Source: a virus
Reading direction: 5' to 3' (one strand)
Virus record (IMG/VR): IMGVR_UViG_3300042922_000757
Location: 1 to 38,290 of that record
Length of the DNA stretch: 38,290 nucleotides
Part shown: positions 6,390-34,257 of the stretch, in pieces
Numbering within the stretch: the stretch's first letter is position 1
Layout: every line of letters starts with the position of its first letter
Position numbers and translations under genes: made by a program
Notes under the pieces: generated by a model
Told to the model about the DNA's origin: nothing
What the model saw: only the letters and a program-made list of their open reading frames with translations
Database searches by the model: none

Positions 6390-7169
6390 CTACCTGCGAC
6401 CCACATAGGCGGCTACCCGGCCCATGATGCGCAACTGGGCAATGTCTACTTCCTGAGCCTCATAAGCCGGGTTGTCGCTGACGATCCGGCACTTGGGCGG
6501 CACCGTGAACATGATGCGCTGCAGGCGCTTGATCTGTGGTTCCGAGTTGCCGTCGCTGATGAGATAAACGCCGTCTGCGCGTAGCTCGTGCTCGGTTAGA
6601 TCAATGATAACTCGGTCGCCAGGCGCATAGTTCGGCAGCATGCTATCGCCCTGAATCGGCAAGACGATTGCGCGGTCTGGATTCGGCACGGCCTCACGAA
6701 GATAGGACGGCGGGATGCGCCATTCGTCCACGATCTTGTGGGCGGAGATGGTGCCATTCCCCACGGGCAGAACCATGACTTCGCCAACCGCGCCTTCGCC
6801 GCCTCCGGCCCGCGCATCCAGTTCGGGGATGCCGCCTTCTATGTGAGGCTCGTAGCTCTCCCGATTGTATCCTTCGCCGTCGCCATCGGGGGTGGGAGTC
6901 CAAGTTTCGGCCTCCACCGGGACGCGCTCTAGCTCGCGCACGGCGCCCTTATTCCCAGCCATGAAGTTGGCGAACGTAATGCCCGTAGCATCCCCGATCT
7001 TCTGCACCGTGGTGTTCGAAAGAGCGAACTTGTGGTTCGGGTCGTTGAGCGGCCGCGTGAGCGTGGTGGAGGGCATTTGCGCCTTCTTTGCCAGCGCAGT
7101 CGCGGTCATGCCCGTAACTTCCATCACGTAGCGTACATAGTCTTTGGTTTGATCGCTCAGTCCGGCCAT
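6390..7169 (-). CDS. CI-like repressor with S24/LexA peptidase domain
   Basis: Protein of 259 residues. The N-terminal HTH lies within about residues 8-65 (MTATALAKKAQMPSTTLTR). The linker has a likely Ala-Gly cleavage site at A121-G122 (ELDARAGGG). The C-terminal peptidase domain shows QGDSMLPNYAPGDRVIID with Ser176 as nucleophile and QIKRLQ with Lys214 as general base. This is the phage repressor that holds lysogeny, binds the TGCATTAATGCA operators and is inactivated by RecA-stimulated self-cleavage. It is divergent from the Cro-like gene. The short spacing to the minus-strand CATATT -10 implies a leader of only about 11 bases. Confidence 0.92.
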   Translation of the reverse strand: MAGLSDQTKDYVRYVMEVTGMTATALAKKAQMPSTTLTRPLNDPNHKFALSNTTVQKIGDATGITFANFMAGNKGAVRELERVPVEAETWTPTPDGDGEGYNRESYEPHIEGGIPELDARAGGGEGAVGEVMVLPVGNGTISAHKIVDEWRIPPSYLREAVPNPDRAIVLPIQGDSMLPNYAPGDRVIIDLTEHELRADGVYLISDGNSEPQIKRLQRIMFTVPPKCRIVSDNPAYEAQEVDIAQLRIMGRVAAYVGRR

Positions 7170-25098: not shown

Positions 25099-26155
25099 CG
25101 CAATCCGTGACCTGGAGCTTCGGCACCAGGTGCAGGTGCAGCGGCTGGCTTCCGGTATTCTCGCCAAGCTGCTTCCGCTGCTGGACCGCGCCGATGAGGA
25201 GATCGTTTCAAAGCTCATCGTTCGGGGCGCGACGCTGGAGGGTTCGTTCACCTCGGTGCGCCTAGGGAAGCTGCTCGATGCTATCCGCAAGATCAACCAT
25301 GACGCCCATGTCTCGGTCGGTAAGGAGTTGAGAAAAGAGCTAGTTGAGATCGCGGGTTACGAGGCTGAGTTCCAGCGTCGGCTTATCAGCTCGGTGCTGC
25401 CGATCGCGTGGGACTTCGTCTCGCCAACAGTGGAGATGCTGAAGGCGGCGGTTACGGCCAGGCCGTTTCAGGGCCGGTTGCTCAAGGAGTGGGTTGCCGA
25501 ACTGGACGAAGCCAAGGCCCGGCGCCTGCGGGATGCAATTCGCCTCGGCGTGGTGCAGGGTGATACGGTGGATCAGATTGTCCGCCGTGTCCGCGGCACA
25601 AAGGCGCTGCGGTACACGGACGGTATCATGAACATCGGTCGGCGTGGCGCGGAGGCTATGGTGCGCACCGCTGTGGCGCACACCACGACGGCAGCGCGGG
25701 ACGAGCTCTATAAGGCTAACTCCGACCTCATCGCTTCTGAGCAATGGGTATCGACCTTGGACACGCGCACATGCCCTCAGTGCATGGGCTTGGACGGGCA
25801 GAAGTTCGAGCTGGGCAAGGGCACACAGACGCCGGCGCATATCGGCTGCCGGTGCGTTCGGGTGCCGGTGACCAAAAGCTGGAAAGAGCTCGGCTTTGAC
25901 ATCGATGATCTGCCGCCCGCAACACGCGCAAGCGTAAATGGACAGGTTAGCGCCACGGAGACCTATGGCTCATGGCTCAAGAAGCAGCCTTCTGGGGTGC
26001 AGGATGAGGCCCTCGGCACTACCCGAGCGGCTCTGTTCCGTAAGGGCGGCTTGCCTGTTGACCGCTTCACCAACCGGGTTGGCGATGAACTAACGCTGGA
26101 CCAGTTGCGGCGTCTGGAAGATCAAGCTTTCGCAAAAGCTGGTCTAGCAGCATAG
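25082..26155 (+). CDS. SPP1 gp7 / MuF-type head morphogenesis protein
   Basis: Protein of 357 residues. The diagnostic region is about residues 180-265: AEAMVRTAVAHTTTAARDEL, then EQWVSTLDTRTCPQCMGLDG and PAHIGCRCVRVPV. The cysteine and histidine residues there are conserved in the MuF domain. Such minor head proteins bind the portal and may enter the host with DNA. It overlaps the portal gene. The C-terminal part (FRKGGLPVDRFTNRVGDELT) resembles the end of other family members. Confidence 0.88.
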   Translation: MQTTNDAIRDLELRHQVQVQRLASGILAKLLPLLDRADEEIVSKLIVRGATLEGSFTSVRLGKLLDAIRKINHDAHVSVGKELRKELVEIAGYEAEFQRRLISSVLPIAWDFVSPTVEMLKAAVTARPFQGRLLKEWVAELDEAKARRLRDAIRLGVVQGDTVDQIVRRVRGTKALRYTDGIMNIGRRGAEAMVRTAVAHTTTAARDELYKANSDLIASEQWVSTLDTRTCPQCMGLDGQKFELGKGTQTPAHIGCRCVRVPVTKSWKELGFDIDDLPPATRASVNGQVSATETYGSWLKKQPSGVQDEALGTTRAALFRKGGLPVDRFTNRVGDELTLDQLRRLEDQAFAKAGLAA

Positions 26156-26162
26156 TGGGGGA

Positions 26163-26441
26163 ATGAAAGACGACTTCCGCGACCGCTCCCATCTCGCCGT
26201 TGTTGATGGCGCTGTGCCCGACGATGCTCCGAAAAGGAGCTATCGCCGGACGGCGCTTGATCAAGCTGAGCAGGTGGTTTGCTGGCAATGCGAGCTCGAC
26301 ACCGGAGTGGCTACCAGTGCCGTGGTCGAGGTGACGGTAGCGCCGAGGCGATCACCGTCCGGGAAGAAGGTCGGCGGGACCAAGCAGTGGGTTTGCGCTC
26401 ATTGCTTGGCCCGGGGCAGAGTTACGAGGTTGATTGGGTAG
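26163..26441 (+). CDS. Zinc-ribbon hypothetical protein
   Basis: Protein of 92 residues. CWQCE and CAHCL form a four-cysteine zinc site spanning about 40 residues, joined by a basic turn (APRRSPSGKKVGG). The N-terminal 35 residues are charged and probably disordered. It follows the MuF gene after 7 bases and is probably co-transcribed with the head genes. Function unknown. Confidence 0.65.
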   Translation: MKDDFRDRSHLAVVDGAVPDDAPKRSYRRTALDQAEQVVCWQCELDTGVATSAVVEVTVAPRRSPSGKKVGGTKQWVCAHCLARGRVTRLIG

Positions 26442-26442
26442 C

Positions 26443-27060
26443 ATGGACTTCGCTGCATTCGGCTTGCCCTGGGAAGTGCTCCTGACTTTGGCAGTGGGGT
26501 ACGCCGGGTACTTCGTAGCGAACGTCGGTGTGCGCGCTCATCACAAGTCGATCGACGTTACCTTTTCGACCATCGTCTATGGGTTTTTCGGGACAGCCGC
26601 GTATCTTGCTGTTCTAGCTGCCGGTTTACAGATGTGGGTGGCGGTGCCTGCCGGCTTCGTCGTGTCGATGGTGGCTGGCGGCTTATGGTCAGCCGTACTG
26701 AGGGATAGATTTGCTGATGCGCTTCGGCATCTGAACGTTTCTCAGAATGACGATTTGCCCTCGGCGCTAGCAAACTTGATGGCCGACAAAAAAGGTCACG
26801 CTACCCAGCTATCTGTTCGTCTGACGACAGGCGTTTGGCTGATGTGCAATGACCTTGCTCGGTTCCAAAGCGCACCTTGCGGACCCTGTGTTTTGGGCCC
26901 AAGTGGCGACGTCCTAATGTACGTTACGCATCATCGAGATGCCGATGGCGACTACGAGGAATGCGAAGTAGATGTCCCTAATTGGGGGATGGAGCTCACC
27001 TACATCCCAGCCAATCAGGTCTCTCGGATCGATCTGCGGAAGAGAGCTATTTCTTCTTAG
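26443..27060 (+). CDS. Membrane protein of unknown function
   Basis: Protein of 205 residues. Three membrane helices lie near residues 9-28, 42-62 and 66-88 (WEVLLTLAVGYAGYFVANVG; FSTIVYGFFGTAAYLAVLAA; AVPAGFVVSMVAGGLWSAVL). A soluble C-terminal domain of about 115 residues follows, with QLSVRLTTGVWLMCNDLARF and an acidic DADGDYEECEVDV. The layout recalls DUF6338-type proteins, but this is not certain. The ATG at 26443 comes 1 base after the previous stop. It opens a cluster of accessory genes inside the head operon. Confidence 0.6.
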   Translation: MDFAAFGLPWEVLLTLAVGYAGYFVANVGVRAHHKSIDVTFSTIVYGFFGTAAYLAVLAAGLQMWVAVPAGFVVSMVAGGLWSAVLRDRFADALRHLNVSQNDDLPSALANLMADKKGHATQLSVRLTTGVWLMCNDLARFQSAPCGPCVLGPSGDVLMYVTHHRDADGDYEECEVDVPNWGMELTYIPANQVSRIDLRKRAISS

Positions 27061-27214
27061 GCATTGGTGGCGTGTTATTGCCGCCCTGGCTGGTCGTCGG
27101 CGTGTGAGAACCCTGCTCCTCGCCGGTGGAAGGGCGATAGCTCTTCTCAACGGTAGGACGGTGGCTGTCCTGTATATTCACTGGCTTCGGTGCGGGCTTA
27201 TCCTTGTCGGTCAT
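27047..27214 (-). CDS. Small disordered protein
   Basis: Protein of 55 residues, MTDKDKPAPKPVNIQDSHRP and ending TTSQGGNNTPPMPKKK. It is low-complexity, rich in Pro, Lys, Thr and Asn, and probably disordered. AGGGATC precedes the ATG at 27214 by about 5 bases. A possible minus-strand promoter, TTGAAC-17-CAGTAT, lies about 40 bases upstream. Short proteins of this kind recur in rhizobial genomes without known function. It overlaps the end of the convergent membrane gene by 14 bases. Confidence 0.55.
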   Translation of the reverse strand: MTDKDKPAPKPVNIQDSHRPTVEKSYRPSTGEEQGSHTPTTSQGGNNTPPMPKKK

Positions 27215-27270
27215 TGTCTGATCCCTGATTGACCTGCGGATACTGGCGCAGATGCCATACTTGTTCAATT

Positions 27271-27300
27271 GCCCGCCCGGCATTTCCGAGGCGGGCTTTT
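27271..27300 (+). terminator. Intrinsic terminator before the Acb2-like gene
   Basis: GCCCGCC (27271-27277) pairs with GGCGGGC (27290-27296) and is followed by TTTT. It should end rightward transcripts coming from the head genes, unless antitermination occurs, just before the gene at 27314. Confidence 0.65.
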
Positions 27301-27313
27301 GATGGAGAAAGTA

Positions 27314-27541
27314 ATGGCCACTGTCGATAGCGCATCCGACGACCGCACCGCCAACAATGCCGTGCGCCACGCCTATCGCATCCTTTCCGATGCCGAGAAG
27401 GCTCAGATGGTCGCGATCAAGGATAAGGGTGCCGAGTTGCTGACCCTGATCGAAGGCCTTGGCGGCAGCCGTGAACTGAGTATCGCCAAGACTAAGACGG
27501 AAGAAGCCGTGATGTGGGCAGTTAAGGCTATTACGGCGTAG
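27314..27541 (+). CDS. Acb2/Tad1-like cyclic-nucleotide sponge candidate
   Basis: Protein of 75 residues. The helical hairpin pattern is YRILSDAEKAQMVAIKDKGA, then ELLTLIEGLGGSRELSIAKT, then KTEEAVMWAVKAITA. It resembles the Acb2/Tad1 hairpin domain (DUF7681), in which a short helix, an Ile-Lys-x-x-Gly helix and an (A/L)xTKxEEAxMWA helix are conserved. Characterised members are phage hexamers that bind cyclic oligonucleotides or gcADPR and block CBASS or Thoeris. GGAG lies 6 bases before the ATG at 27314. The assignment is by remembered pattern; binding here is inference. Confidence 0.62.
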   Translation: MATVDSASDDRTANNAVRHAYRILSDAEKAQMVAIKDKGAELLTLIEGLGGSRELSIAKTKTEEAVMWAVKAITA

Positions 27542-27543
27542 GC

Positions 27544-27780
27544 TTACCCTATCAAGCCACGCTGGTACGCCAGCTCATCGATTTCACGCAGTGCGTTCTC
27601 AGTGGAGTGCCAAAGTTTGTTGTGGCTCTCTAGCAACTTGTCACGAGCTAGAGGATCCTTGGGGAGCGGGTTGTCGGCGAACGTGTCGATGGCCTTTCTG
27701 ACCCTTTGAAGAATGCGCGAGTACGAATCCCGCGCTTCCGCGAGTTCATCGTCGGTCAGTCCAGTCAGGTCCACGGCCAT
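27544..27780 (-). CDS. Small hypothetical helical protein
   Basis: Protein of 78 residues, MAVDLTGLTDDELAEARDSY and onwards. It is acidic and helical, with ILQRVRKAIDTF and LLESHNKLWHSTENALREIDEL, possibly a two- or three-helix bundle. GGAG lies about 7 bases before the ATG. It is convergent with the Acb2-like gene, 2 bases apart. Family unknown. Confidence 0.6.
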   Translation of the reverse strand: MAVDLTGLTDDELAEARDSYSRILQRVRKAIDTFADNPLPKDPLARDKLLESHNKLWHSTENALREIDELAYQRGLIG

Positions 27781-27900
27781 CGGGCTTCTCCACTTTCACG
27801 AAGCCGATCCAATCACCAAGGGGGTCAAAATGCAATTCGCCCCGACGCTGTAAGCGCCGTCTCCGAACAGCCTTTTTACGCTTAGAGAGGCCAAAGCGGC

Positions 27901-28206
27901 TTATTGGTTGATGCGCATGATCCAATTCTGAGCGGCGCCCATCGATGCTCGTTCGTTGGGTACTTCCCGCTCGTCAGCTGGGCGGAAGCGCAACTCAGCG
28001 CTTCCGACTAAAATGCAAAGCAGGTCGCCGTCAATTTCAGCTACCCGGCCTAGCTCAGTTCGGCCGTCTACAGCGAATTCGATGTCATCACCTACTGACA
28101 GCACCACAAATTTTTCATCTGACGCTTCTCTGGGCGTGATCGTGATGCGAGCCCATGGGGATATCCCCCCATGCACTTCAGCGGTCCACTTTGGTGTTTT
28201 AGTCAT
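27901..28206 (-). CDS. Hypothetical beta-rich protein
   Basis: Protein of 101 residues. The strands WARITITPREA, FVVLSVGDDIEFAV, LLCILVGSAELRF suggest a small beta barrel. GGGAAG precedes the ATG. A good -35, TTGACA (28287-28282 on the minus strand), lies upstream, although the -10 is weak. It is probably expressed independently of the late operon. Function unknown. Confidence 0.6.
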   Translation of the reverse strand: MTKTPKWTAEVHGGISPWARITITPREASDEKFVVLSVGDDIEFAVDGRTELGRVAEIDGDLLCILVGSAELRFRPADEREVPNERASMGAAQNWIMRINQ

Positions 28207-28281
28207 GGCTACTTCCCGTCAAACGCTCAGGCAACATCGAAATCTCGAACGAGGCAGCATCGAGACGATGCCCTGCTGAAT

Positions 28282-28287
28282 TGTCAA
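28282..28287 (-). promoter_or_regulatory. -35 box of a minus-strand promoter
   Basis: TTGACA read on the minus strand, 76 bases before the ATG of the 101-residue gene. The -10 expected 17 bases on is only CTCGAT, so the promoter is uncertain. Confidence 0.3.
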
Positions 28288-28326
28288 TGCCCGGCGAGGC
28301 CGTGGCGCAACCTGAAGGGTAGGCCG

Positions 28327-28578
28327 ATGGCTACCGCTAATCCAATCTGGAAACTCACCACGGGCAACCTGCCGAACGGCTGCGCCGCTGCATGGCATGC
28401 CGAAATCGGCGGACGAACCCTTGCCGGCATCTTCCGCCTTATGGCCGGTGACGTCTTCATGCTCTGCTACCAAGTCATGGGCGACCCTAAGGCCACGGTG
28501 GAGCGCTTTTGCACCATCCAAGAGGCGCAGGACCGCGCCAACGTCGTGTTGAGCACCCGGCTCTGCATGCCGCGCTGA
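28327..28578 (+). CDS. Hypothetical small protein
   Basis: Protein of 83 residues, MATANPIWKLTTGNLPNGCA, then AWHAEIGGRTLAGIFRLMAG. It forms several predicted strands and then an EAQDRANVVLSTRL helix. The ATG at 28327 follows GAAGGGTAGG. It has its own terminator right after the stop, so it is the end of a transcript. Function unknown; part of the accessory cluster 26443-28578. Confidence 0.6.
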   Translation: MATANPIWKLTTGNLPNGCAAAWHAEIGGRTLAGIFRLMAGDVFMLCYQVMGDPKATVERFCTIQEAQDRANVVLSTRLCMPR

Positions 28579-28601
28579 CACCGCCCCAAAACCGCATCGC
28601 C

Positions 28602-28625
28602 GCCGCCCGATGAGGCGGCTTTTTT
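28602..28625 (+). terminator. Intrinsic terminator before the scaffold gene
   Basis: GCCGCC (28602-28607), a 6-base loop, GGCGGC (28614-28619), then TTTTTT (28620-28625). This is a strong rho-independent terminator standing 36 bases ahead of the scaffold start. Confidence 0.8.
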
Positions 28626-28661
28626 ATTGCCGGTGAGACCGGCCCAACCGGAGTAATGCCG

Positions 28662-29450
28662 ATGGCATTGAAGACCATTCTCGACAGCCTGGACGACGTG
28701 CCAGACGCCCTGAAGACTGAATACAAAGAGGTCGACGGCAAGTTCGTCCTCGACATCGAAGGGATCGACGCGCACCCCGCCGTCGTGAACCTCAAGACCG
28801 CGCACGAGCGGCAGAAGACCACGAACAAGACACTGCAAGCCGATTTGACCGCAGCTAAGGCGCGGCTCGAAGGCCTTCCCGACGACTTTGACGCTGACGC
28901 CTATGAGGCCCTGCAGGCGCAGGCAGAAGGCAAGGCTCCCGCCAAGACCGATGAGCAGGTTGCCCAGGTGCGCCAGCAGCTCGAGCGCAAGCATCAAGGC
29001 GAGTTGACCAAGAAGGACGAGCGCATCGCCACTCTGGAAGGCGCCGTGACCAAAGCCACGATCGATGACGGCCTGTCCAAAGCCCTCGATGAAGCTGGCG
29101 TTGACCCCGCATTCAAGCCCGGAGCCATGGCTCTGCTCAAGAGCAAGGGCGCGGTGAAGCTGGTCGAGGAAGACGGCACGTTCAAAGCCACCGTAGAAAC
29201 CGATATGGGCCCGATGCCCCTGGCTGGCTATGTCAAGGATTGGTCAGGCTCCGACGAGGGCAAGATCTACGTCAAGAAGCCCACCGGCGGCGATGCTCCG
29301 GGCGGGCAGGGCAACCGCTTCACCGACAACCCGTGGGACACCAGCAACGGCAAGCGTCCCAACCTGACAAAGCAGCAAGAACTCATTGCTTCAAACGACG
29401 CCAAGGCCCGCCAGATGGCGCAGGCCGCCGGCATCACTCCAAACTGGTAG
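28662..29450 (+). CDS. Phage scaffolding protein
   Basis: Protein of 262 residues. Long charged helices fill residues 30-130 (LKTAHERQKTTNKTLQADLT, VRQQLERKHQGELTKKDERI). They are followed by TIDDGLSKALDEAGVDPAFK and a C-terminal NPWDTSNGKRPNLTKQQEL segment, typical of scaffold proteins encoded just before the major capsid gene. It should template procapsid assembly and then leave. The ATG at 28662 was chosen because GGAG is 8 bases upstream, better than the ATG at 28656. Confidence 0.82.
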   Translation: MALKTILDSLDDVPDALKTEYKEVDGKFVLDIEGIDAHPAVVNLKTAHERQKTTNKTLQADLTAAKARLEGLPDDFDADAYEALQAQAEGKAPAKTDEQVAQVRQQLERKHQGELTKKDERIATLEGAVTKATIDDGLSKALDEAGVDPAFKPGAMALLKSKGAVKLVEEDGTFKATVETDMGPMPLAGYVKDWSGSDEGKIYVKKPTGGDAPGGQGNRFTDNPWDTSNGKRPNLTKQQELIASNDAKARQMAQAAGITPNW

Positions 29451-33159: not shown

Positions 33160-33483
33160 CTACCCACACCACGGCCTGACCAGATTACGGGCGGCGTCAA
33201 CATCGAGGTTCAGGCGCGCCTCGCTGTAATTCTGAATCATAGCATCATTCGGACCGATCACCCTCACGTCGCCATGAGACTGGACCAGCGCACCGCCCAC
33301 CCGAACGTTCGACGCGGTGTCACCAGCAACAGGCTGCCCGACCTTGCTCTTAAGGACTGATGCGCCGCAGTCTTCTAGCGGAGGTGAAGGGGTTGCTGAT
33401 GGCGGTACTGCGGACGCCGTGCACCCGACGAGAATGATGGCTGCAGCAACGCCAGCAACACAGGTAAGCGAACGAGATGTCAT
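33160..33483 (-). CDS. I78-family peptidase inhibitor lipoprotein
   Basis: Protein of 107 residues. Lipoprotein signal with lipobox LVGC (C21), a Pro/Ser-rich linker, then the I78 domain: C39, KVGQPV, a basic RVIGP strand, NYSEARLNLDVD and the terminal CG (C106). C39 and C106 probably form the conserved disulfide. I78 members inhibit serine proteases from the envelope. GGGAT lies 8 bases before the ATG at 33483. It is reversed against the tail genes, so it is probably a lysogenic-conversion gene. Confidence 0.8.
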   Translation of the reverse strand: MTSRSLTCVAGVAAAIILVGCTASAVPPSATPSPPLEDCGASVLKSKVGQPVAGDTASNVRVGGALVQSHGDVRVIGPNDAMIQNYSEARLNLDVDAARNLVRPWCG

Positions 33484-33564
33484 CTTTGCAATCCCTATCA
33501 GTTTACGCACGGTTGACCCACCATCTGGCCATTTTGAGGCCGCAGGAGTTGAGCCATCACCGGC

Positions 33565-34173
33565 TTAGCAGAGCGACTCGCAAGCTATCCCGTCATTGTC
33601 ACGATCTAGCCTGCCGCCCCAAGAACAGTTCTGCCGATACCATTGGGCAGCGGAGCAGCTCGAGATCTGTCCGCATGTTCTGCGCGGCGAACACGACTGC
33701 CCGGAGGCGGCAGCAGGAACAGATTGCGCCAAAGGGGCAGGGGGGCGGTATATTGATTGCGGCCGATTCCTAGAGGTGAATTGCTCGCTGACCCACCCTC
33801 GGCCCGCTGAAGCGGATTGCACGAACAGCCAGCCATCTCGGGCTTCAAGTACGGCGATCTGATCGCCACTGGGAATCTTGCCGACCACTTTGCCCGCGGA
33901 ACTTGGATCGGATCGAACGTTCAGCGATGTCGCCGTGACGTATCGAGTTTCGGTCTGTTTCGCCGGCGAGGTCGAGACTTGGGCTGCTGGAGCTCTATGA
34001 GAAGGCTCGGTTGCCGTGCTCGCCTGAGTTGAACTCGTGACCGGCGAGGTAACCGCGGAGCTTGTCGACGAGGACGGCGCGTCCTCCGACTTGAAGATTT
34101 GGCCGAAGATCAGGACAACCACCCCAACGATCAGCCATCCACCGAACGACGACTTCTTCTTCTTTCTCGCCAA
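33565..34173 (-). CDS. Membrane SH3-domain protein with excalibur motif
   Basis: Protein of 202 residues. A basic N terminus (LARKKKKSSFGG) and one membrane helix (WLIVGVVVLIFGQIF) are followed by a Ser/Thr linker. A bacterial SH3 domain comes next (YVTATSLNVRSDPSSAGKVV; DGWLFVQSASAGRGWVSE), and a C-terminal excalibur calcium-binding motif (GGRLDRDNDGIACESLC). It is probably anchored in the inner membrane with wall-facing domains. The TTG at 34173 was chosen because GGAGG is 6 bases upstream; the ATG at 34179 abuts it. Confidence 0.78.
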   Translation of the reverse strand: MARKKKKSSFGGWLIVGVVVLIFGQIFKSEDAPSSSTSSAVTSPVTSSTQASTATEPSHRAPAAQVSTSPAKQTETRYVTATSLNVRSDPSSAGKVVGKIPSGDQIAVLEARDGWLFVQSASAGRGWVSEQFTSRNRPQSIYRPPAPLAQSVPAAASGQSCSPRRTCGQISSCSAAQWYRQNCSWGGRLDRDNDGIACESLC

Positions 34174-34257
34174 TTCCATCCTCCGTTACGAAGATTGGCG
34201 CGCCAAAGCAGAAGAGTCGAGTCCCTGTCTAGAAGTACGGCATTTCGGGAACTTCAC

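Follow-up and report, generated by a model that had tools for sequence, protein, structure and literature searches.

Bacteria use nucleotide alarm signals that lead to suicide on infection, and the Acb2 family of phage sponges soaks these signals up. Acb2 has been described as relatively rare and restricted (PMC11722364). In phage T4, the Acb2 protein Vs.4 holds cGAMP by residues Y8, H11, K23, R79, and F82; the Y8A substitution reduces cGAMP binding more than 5-fold, and mutants at L29, A66, A73, and A77 lose both the hexamer and binding (PMC10097602). T4 Y8A serves as a binding-deficient mutant, and T68M has been described as lowering affinity (PMC12657230).

We analyzed a 38,290-nt stretch of viral DNA, here called the window, which is a prophage. 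It carries a tRNA-Gly gene at 948 to 1021 and then an integrase-like ORF at 1096 to 2274 (identified by eye from the sequence), followed by an S24-type repressor gene at 6390 to 7169 and, beyond the repressor, by genes for the small and large terminase, portal, MuF, scaffold, capsid, connectors, and tail. The whole record (G000) has one match to the Acb2/Tad1 hairpin family. It lies in a 75-amino-acid protein encoded among the late head genes, where the sequence-only reading had placed it, with terminase, portal, and MuF upstream and scaffold and major capsid downstream. The coordinates given by that reading proved exact, and the SRELSIAKT and EEAVMWAVK motifs that it had pointed out are both present. 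The gene and its leader comprise the following features.

27271 to 27300 (stem 27271 to 27296), plus strand: GC-rich leader hairpin followed by UUUU, resembling a terminator or attenuator (−24.7 kcal/mol, z −4.0)
27304 to 27307, plus strand: Shine-Dalgarno sequence GGAG, 6 nt upstream of the ATG, recognized from sequence
27314 to 27541, plus strand: coding sequence of the predicted 75-amino-acid Acb2-type sponge, with the PF24729 hairpin at residues 21 to 74

The ORF begins with an ATG at 27314, ends with a stop codon at 27539 to 27541, and has the translation MATVDSASDDRTANNAVRHAYRILSDAEKAQMVAIKDKGAELLTLIEGLGGSRELSIAKTKTEEAVMWAVKAITA; the alternative in-frame start, the ATG at 27302, is less suitable. 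Compared with its two closest relatives, the gene has a dN/dS of about 0.045 to 0.07, indicating strong purifying selection, and most of the changes fall at third codon positions. Since it also has relatives elsewhere, 27314 to 27541 is a real, selected gene rather than a chance ORF.

Searching Pfam-A with the protein gave a match to PF24729, Acb2_Tad1_hairpin, across residues 21 to 74 (E 2.1e-20). The score of 73.1 bits, against a curated cutoff of 27 bits, bears out the hairpin family named in the sequence-only reading. PHROGs returned solely families of unknown function, and searches of PADLOC and NCBIfam returned no significant match. When a profile of 67 relatives was searched against the whole PDB, the first nine matches were Acb2 and Tad1 structures only, including the Acb2 entries 8h2j and 8ixz (PaMx33/PaP2), 7uq2 (T4 Vs.4), and 9ptq (homolog 43) and the Tad1 entries 8kbh, 7uav, and 8kbe; the E values are modest (0.002 to 0.12), in line with what proteins this short should give. 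An AlphaFold2 model built with 65 relatives (mean pLDDT 84.7) is all-helical, with a short N-terminal helix, two long antiparallel helices, and no other domain. The long helices, residues 26 to 47 and 53 to 74, are modeled at a pLDDT of about 98, so that the expected helical hairpin was obtained with confidence, and the N-terminal helix at 10 to 17 is of low confidence (pLDDT about 52). The top eight Foldseek matches in the PDB were all Vs.4/Acb2, at probabilities of 0.99 to 1.0 yet with E values of 0.17 to 0.42, and VIA-align ranked 7uq2 first (Z 6.6, which is low for a helical hairpin) and gave 8h2j a Z of 6.0. For a two-helix hairpin these structural scores alone are not decisive; they agree with the sequence profile.

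The residues that matter in the described proteins could be mapped onto the 75-amino-acid protein. Y8 of Vs.4 and Y11 of PaMx33 Acb2 correspond to Y21, K23 and K26 to K36, R79 and R85 to K71, and T68 and T74 to T60. At the interface, L29, A66, A73, and A77 of Vs.4 correspond to L42, A58, A65, and A69, all four identical. The spacing of 15 between Y21 and K36 is the same as that between Y8 and K23 in T4 and between Y11 and K26 in PaMx33. Besides R79, now K71, two of the Vs.4 contacts with cGAMP are changed, H11 to L24 and F82 to T74; PaMx33 Acb2, which was solved with 3′,3′-cGAMP, likewise lacks these two and has L14 and A88. Across 73 distinct sequences, a sample that favors likeness because it was collected using patterns of the 75-amino-acid protein itself, Y21, R22, K36, R53, E54, A58, and K71 are invariant. 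So are R11, N14, N15, and R18 in the N-terminal segment, which are absent from Vs.4 and PaMx33 Acb2.

By family, modeled monomer fold, and conserved key residues, the 75-amino-acid protein is a genuine Acb2-type sponge. We consider it highly probable, by analogy with the described proteins, that it acts as a hexameric nucleotide sponge against host CBASS signals, and the most likely mechanism would be sequestration of CBASS cyclic dinucleotides, trinucleotides, or both by that hexamer. In the modeled protomer, a short N-terminal helix, itself of low confidence, would precede the two antiparallel helices. If the protein assembles as T4 Vs.4 and PaMx33 Acb2 do, six protomers would pack through the Leu and Ala faces formed by L42, A58, A65, and A69. 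The hexamer would then have three pockets for cyclic dinucleotides, with Y21, R22, K36, and K71 as their lining, and two sites for cyclic trinucleotides, which would lie at the ends of the trimers close to R53, E54, and T60. During lytic growth or induction, the sponge would take up the signal molecules that the host's CBASS enzymes produce and leave them uncleaved; because the signals would be held in this way, the effector would stay off and the phage would complete its cycle. The late-gene position is unusual for a protein that needs to act early and counts against the sponge reading, as do the two altered Vs.4 cGAMP contacts and the lack of CD-NTase enrichment in hairpin-carrying genomes (below).

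Relatives of the protein were found on at least 80 IMG/VR contigs (59 to 91% identical) and, in species genomes, at 67 loci, mostly in Alphaproteobacteria; identities overall ranged from 49 to 91%. A plasmid search for relatives and a DNA-level search of phage records with the gene both gave no match. The 130 distinct proteins encoded immediately upstream of the relatives fell into 104 unrelated clusters. The commonest upstream neighbor was a portal gene of one family (10 of 40 sampled), and others included glycosyltransferase, endolysin, and methyltransferase genes. Because the neighbors are mostly unrelated while identity remains at 49 to 91%, the gene travels as a cassette among unrelated phages. 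Several further observations concern the family at large. The genome of L085 (G001) contains two hairpin copies, located on separate contigs (C1:11733-11894 and C28:12903-13085), plus a CD-NTase. A sub-branch has an insertion of 4 to 24 residues in the hairpin loop before the conserved RE motif, seen by alignment in L040, L047, L054, L057, L066, and L080 and inferred from longer matches in L096, L107, and L118. Distant hairpin homologs in Paenibacillus phages (H29 to H33 and H36 to H39) lie under features labeled "phosphomannomutase," which looks like a misannotation.

Within the window, the gene belongs to an accessory block whose contents vary between related phages.

26441 to 28657, no strand assigned: accessory cargo block, from the zinc-ribbon gene after MuF to the scaffold gene; unrelated DNA in sibling phage L152
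27547 to 27780, minus strand: 78-amino-acid ORF in the cargo block, function unassigned
27904 to 28206, minus strand: 101-amino-acid ORF in the cargo block, function unassigned

No relatives of the 78- and 101-amino-acid cargo ORFs were found. Relatives of the capsid protein identified 40 sibling loci in IMG/VR, most of them 84 to 99% identical, and none of the 40 had an Acb2 protein match. In the closest, L152, the capsid is 99% identical and the flanks are 86 to 91% identical at the DNA level, with other DNA replacing 26441 to 28657. The slot is variable in L152, L154, L160, L163, L164, L165, L168, L171, L176, L178, and L180, and its contents in siblings, several of them with domains that resemble those of defense proteins, include DUF4238, HEPN_RiboL-PSP, AbiJ_NTD4, DUF4145, and the PADLOC candidate system PDC-S32. 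In Pseudomonas Mu-like phages, anti-CRISPR genes are known to occur at a position in the head operon where gene content varies, and the cargo slot described here resembles that arrangement. The head-module slot of this phage lineage is a place to seek both counter-defense and defense genes. Elsewhere in the window, in the late tail region, two minus-strand genes at 33160 to 33510 and 33565 to 34179, encoding a peptidase inhibitor I78 protein and an SH3/Excalibur protein, look like further cargo.

The sequence-only reading had the gene behind a terminator and therefore possibly expressed on its own. The hairpin was indeed found before the gene, but independent expression did not hold up, since the hairpin is part of the gene's own leader and a search of 26000 to 28700 for sigma-70-like promoters gave no match. 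The hairpin and its UUUU stop 13 nt upstream of the ATG at 27314, a gap too short to hold a promoter, and we therefore rejected a dedicated promoter behind the terminator. If the hairpin terminates transcription, expression would depend on read-through, on antitermination, or on transcription passing through it from a promoter located no more than about 100 bp upstream. A hairpin followed by T residues lay upstream of 11 of 131 relatives compared with 1.8% of random segments, a loose comparison in that the random segments are mostly coding; an upstream terminator is no general feature of the relatives.

We looked for the presumed target in two sets of 199 genomes, the families of a Sphingomonas host and of a Microvirga host. 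The hairpin family was present in 6/199 and 13/199 genomes and CBASS-type CD-NTases (PF18144) in 21/199 and 28/199, respectively, which places the presumed target within likely hosts. CD-NTases were not enriched in the hairpin genomes of these sets, with 3 of 19 co-occurring against about 2.5 expected. An apparent excess of CD-NTases, in 5 of 30 hosts versus 8 of 289 genomes of the class, was set aside because the search loses sensitivity as the set grows (G002 was matched in the 30-host search but not in a 199-genome search) and because genome sizes differ.

A rival reading concerns the N-terminal segment. The Acb2 fold might have been kept and retuned, via the clade's invariant D-R-T-x-N-N-x-x-R-H-x-Y-R, to a Thoeris ADPR-type signal, to a cyclic oligoadenylate of type III CRISPR, or to cyclic trinucleotides alone. 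R11, N14, N15, and R18, invariant in the 73 sequences with no counterpart in Vs.4 or PaMx33, speak for such a change, as does the loss of the Vs.4 contacts F82 and H11; we nevertheless think it unlikely, given that the core Y, K, and R/K of the dinucleotide pocket are invariant too, that PaMx33 Acb2 binds cGAMP without the same two contacts, and that the Tad1 β-domain is absent. We allow a small but real chance that the clade from alphaproteobacterial phages is a functionally distinct Acb2-fold branch, carried as a mobile cassette, in which R11, T12, N14, N15, R18, and H19 read a signal or linkage other than that of T4 and PaMx33.

Given its place among head genes and the portals of one family upstream of 10 of 40 sampled relatives, the gene might instead encode a head morphogenesis accessory protein whose helical hairpin is coincidental. 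This is very unlikely, since nonhomologous neighbors recur (104 clusters among 130 upstream proteins), the sponge gene is missing from close siblings that share these head genes, and the conserved residues fit a nucleotide pocket. The strong terminator-like hairpin before the ATG and the lack of a promoter match could also mark a decayed or nonexpressed relic, which is highly improbable for an intact ORF with a good ribosome-binding site, a dN/dS of about 0.05, and all key residues kept.

As an Acb2-type sponge, the protein can be set beside the named systems. The sequence-only reading had called it Acb2/Tad1-type; the Acb2 part stands, with an end-to-end alignment, and the Tad1, anti-Thoeris part does not. 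Tad1 (7uav, 8kbe, 8kbh) shares the C-terminal hairpin motif SREnxcAxThvEEAxMW but has an additional N-terminal β-sheet domain that forms the gcADPR pocket. The 75-residue, all-helical model lacks this domain, and we rejected a Tad1 identity; an anti-Thoeris role is for the same reason not supported. T4 Vs.4 (7uq2) has the same Pfam hairpin, and its Y8, K23, L29, A66, T68, A73, and A77 are identical in the 75-amino-acid protein, whereas R79, H11, F82, and S74 are replaced by Lys, Leu, Thr, and Val. Compared with Vs.4, the hairpin loop is about 20 residues shorter, the N terminus is longer and clade specific, and the protein ends one residue past the F82 position. Acb2 of the Pseudomonas phages PaMx33 and PaP2 (p26; 8h2j, 8ixz) shares the YRxLSxxE...K motif and the lack of a β-domain, and its Y11, R12, L14, K26, R67, T74, and R85 have counterparts here; it differs in a hairpin loop about 25 residues longer, a C-terminal QPDSF tail, and two interface positions with Gly rather than Ala. 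Acb2 homolog 43 (9ptq, 76 amino acids), assigned its function by PDB name alone, resembles the protein in its short loop, near-equal length, and GREkSvfKTKlEEA motif, with confident alignment restricted to the C-terminal helix (E 0.013). Direct orthologs are Dunaliella viridis virus SI2 gp15 (68% identical) and Sinorhizobium phage Aussie gp37 (62% identical), both annotated as hypothetical and in other genome contexts. The comparison adds a short-loop, strongly conserved Acb2 clade from phages of Rhizobiales, Sphingomonadales, Rhodobacterales, and relatives, whose members are carried in records as "hypothetical protein," whereas Acb2 has been called relatively rare (PMC11722364).
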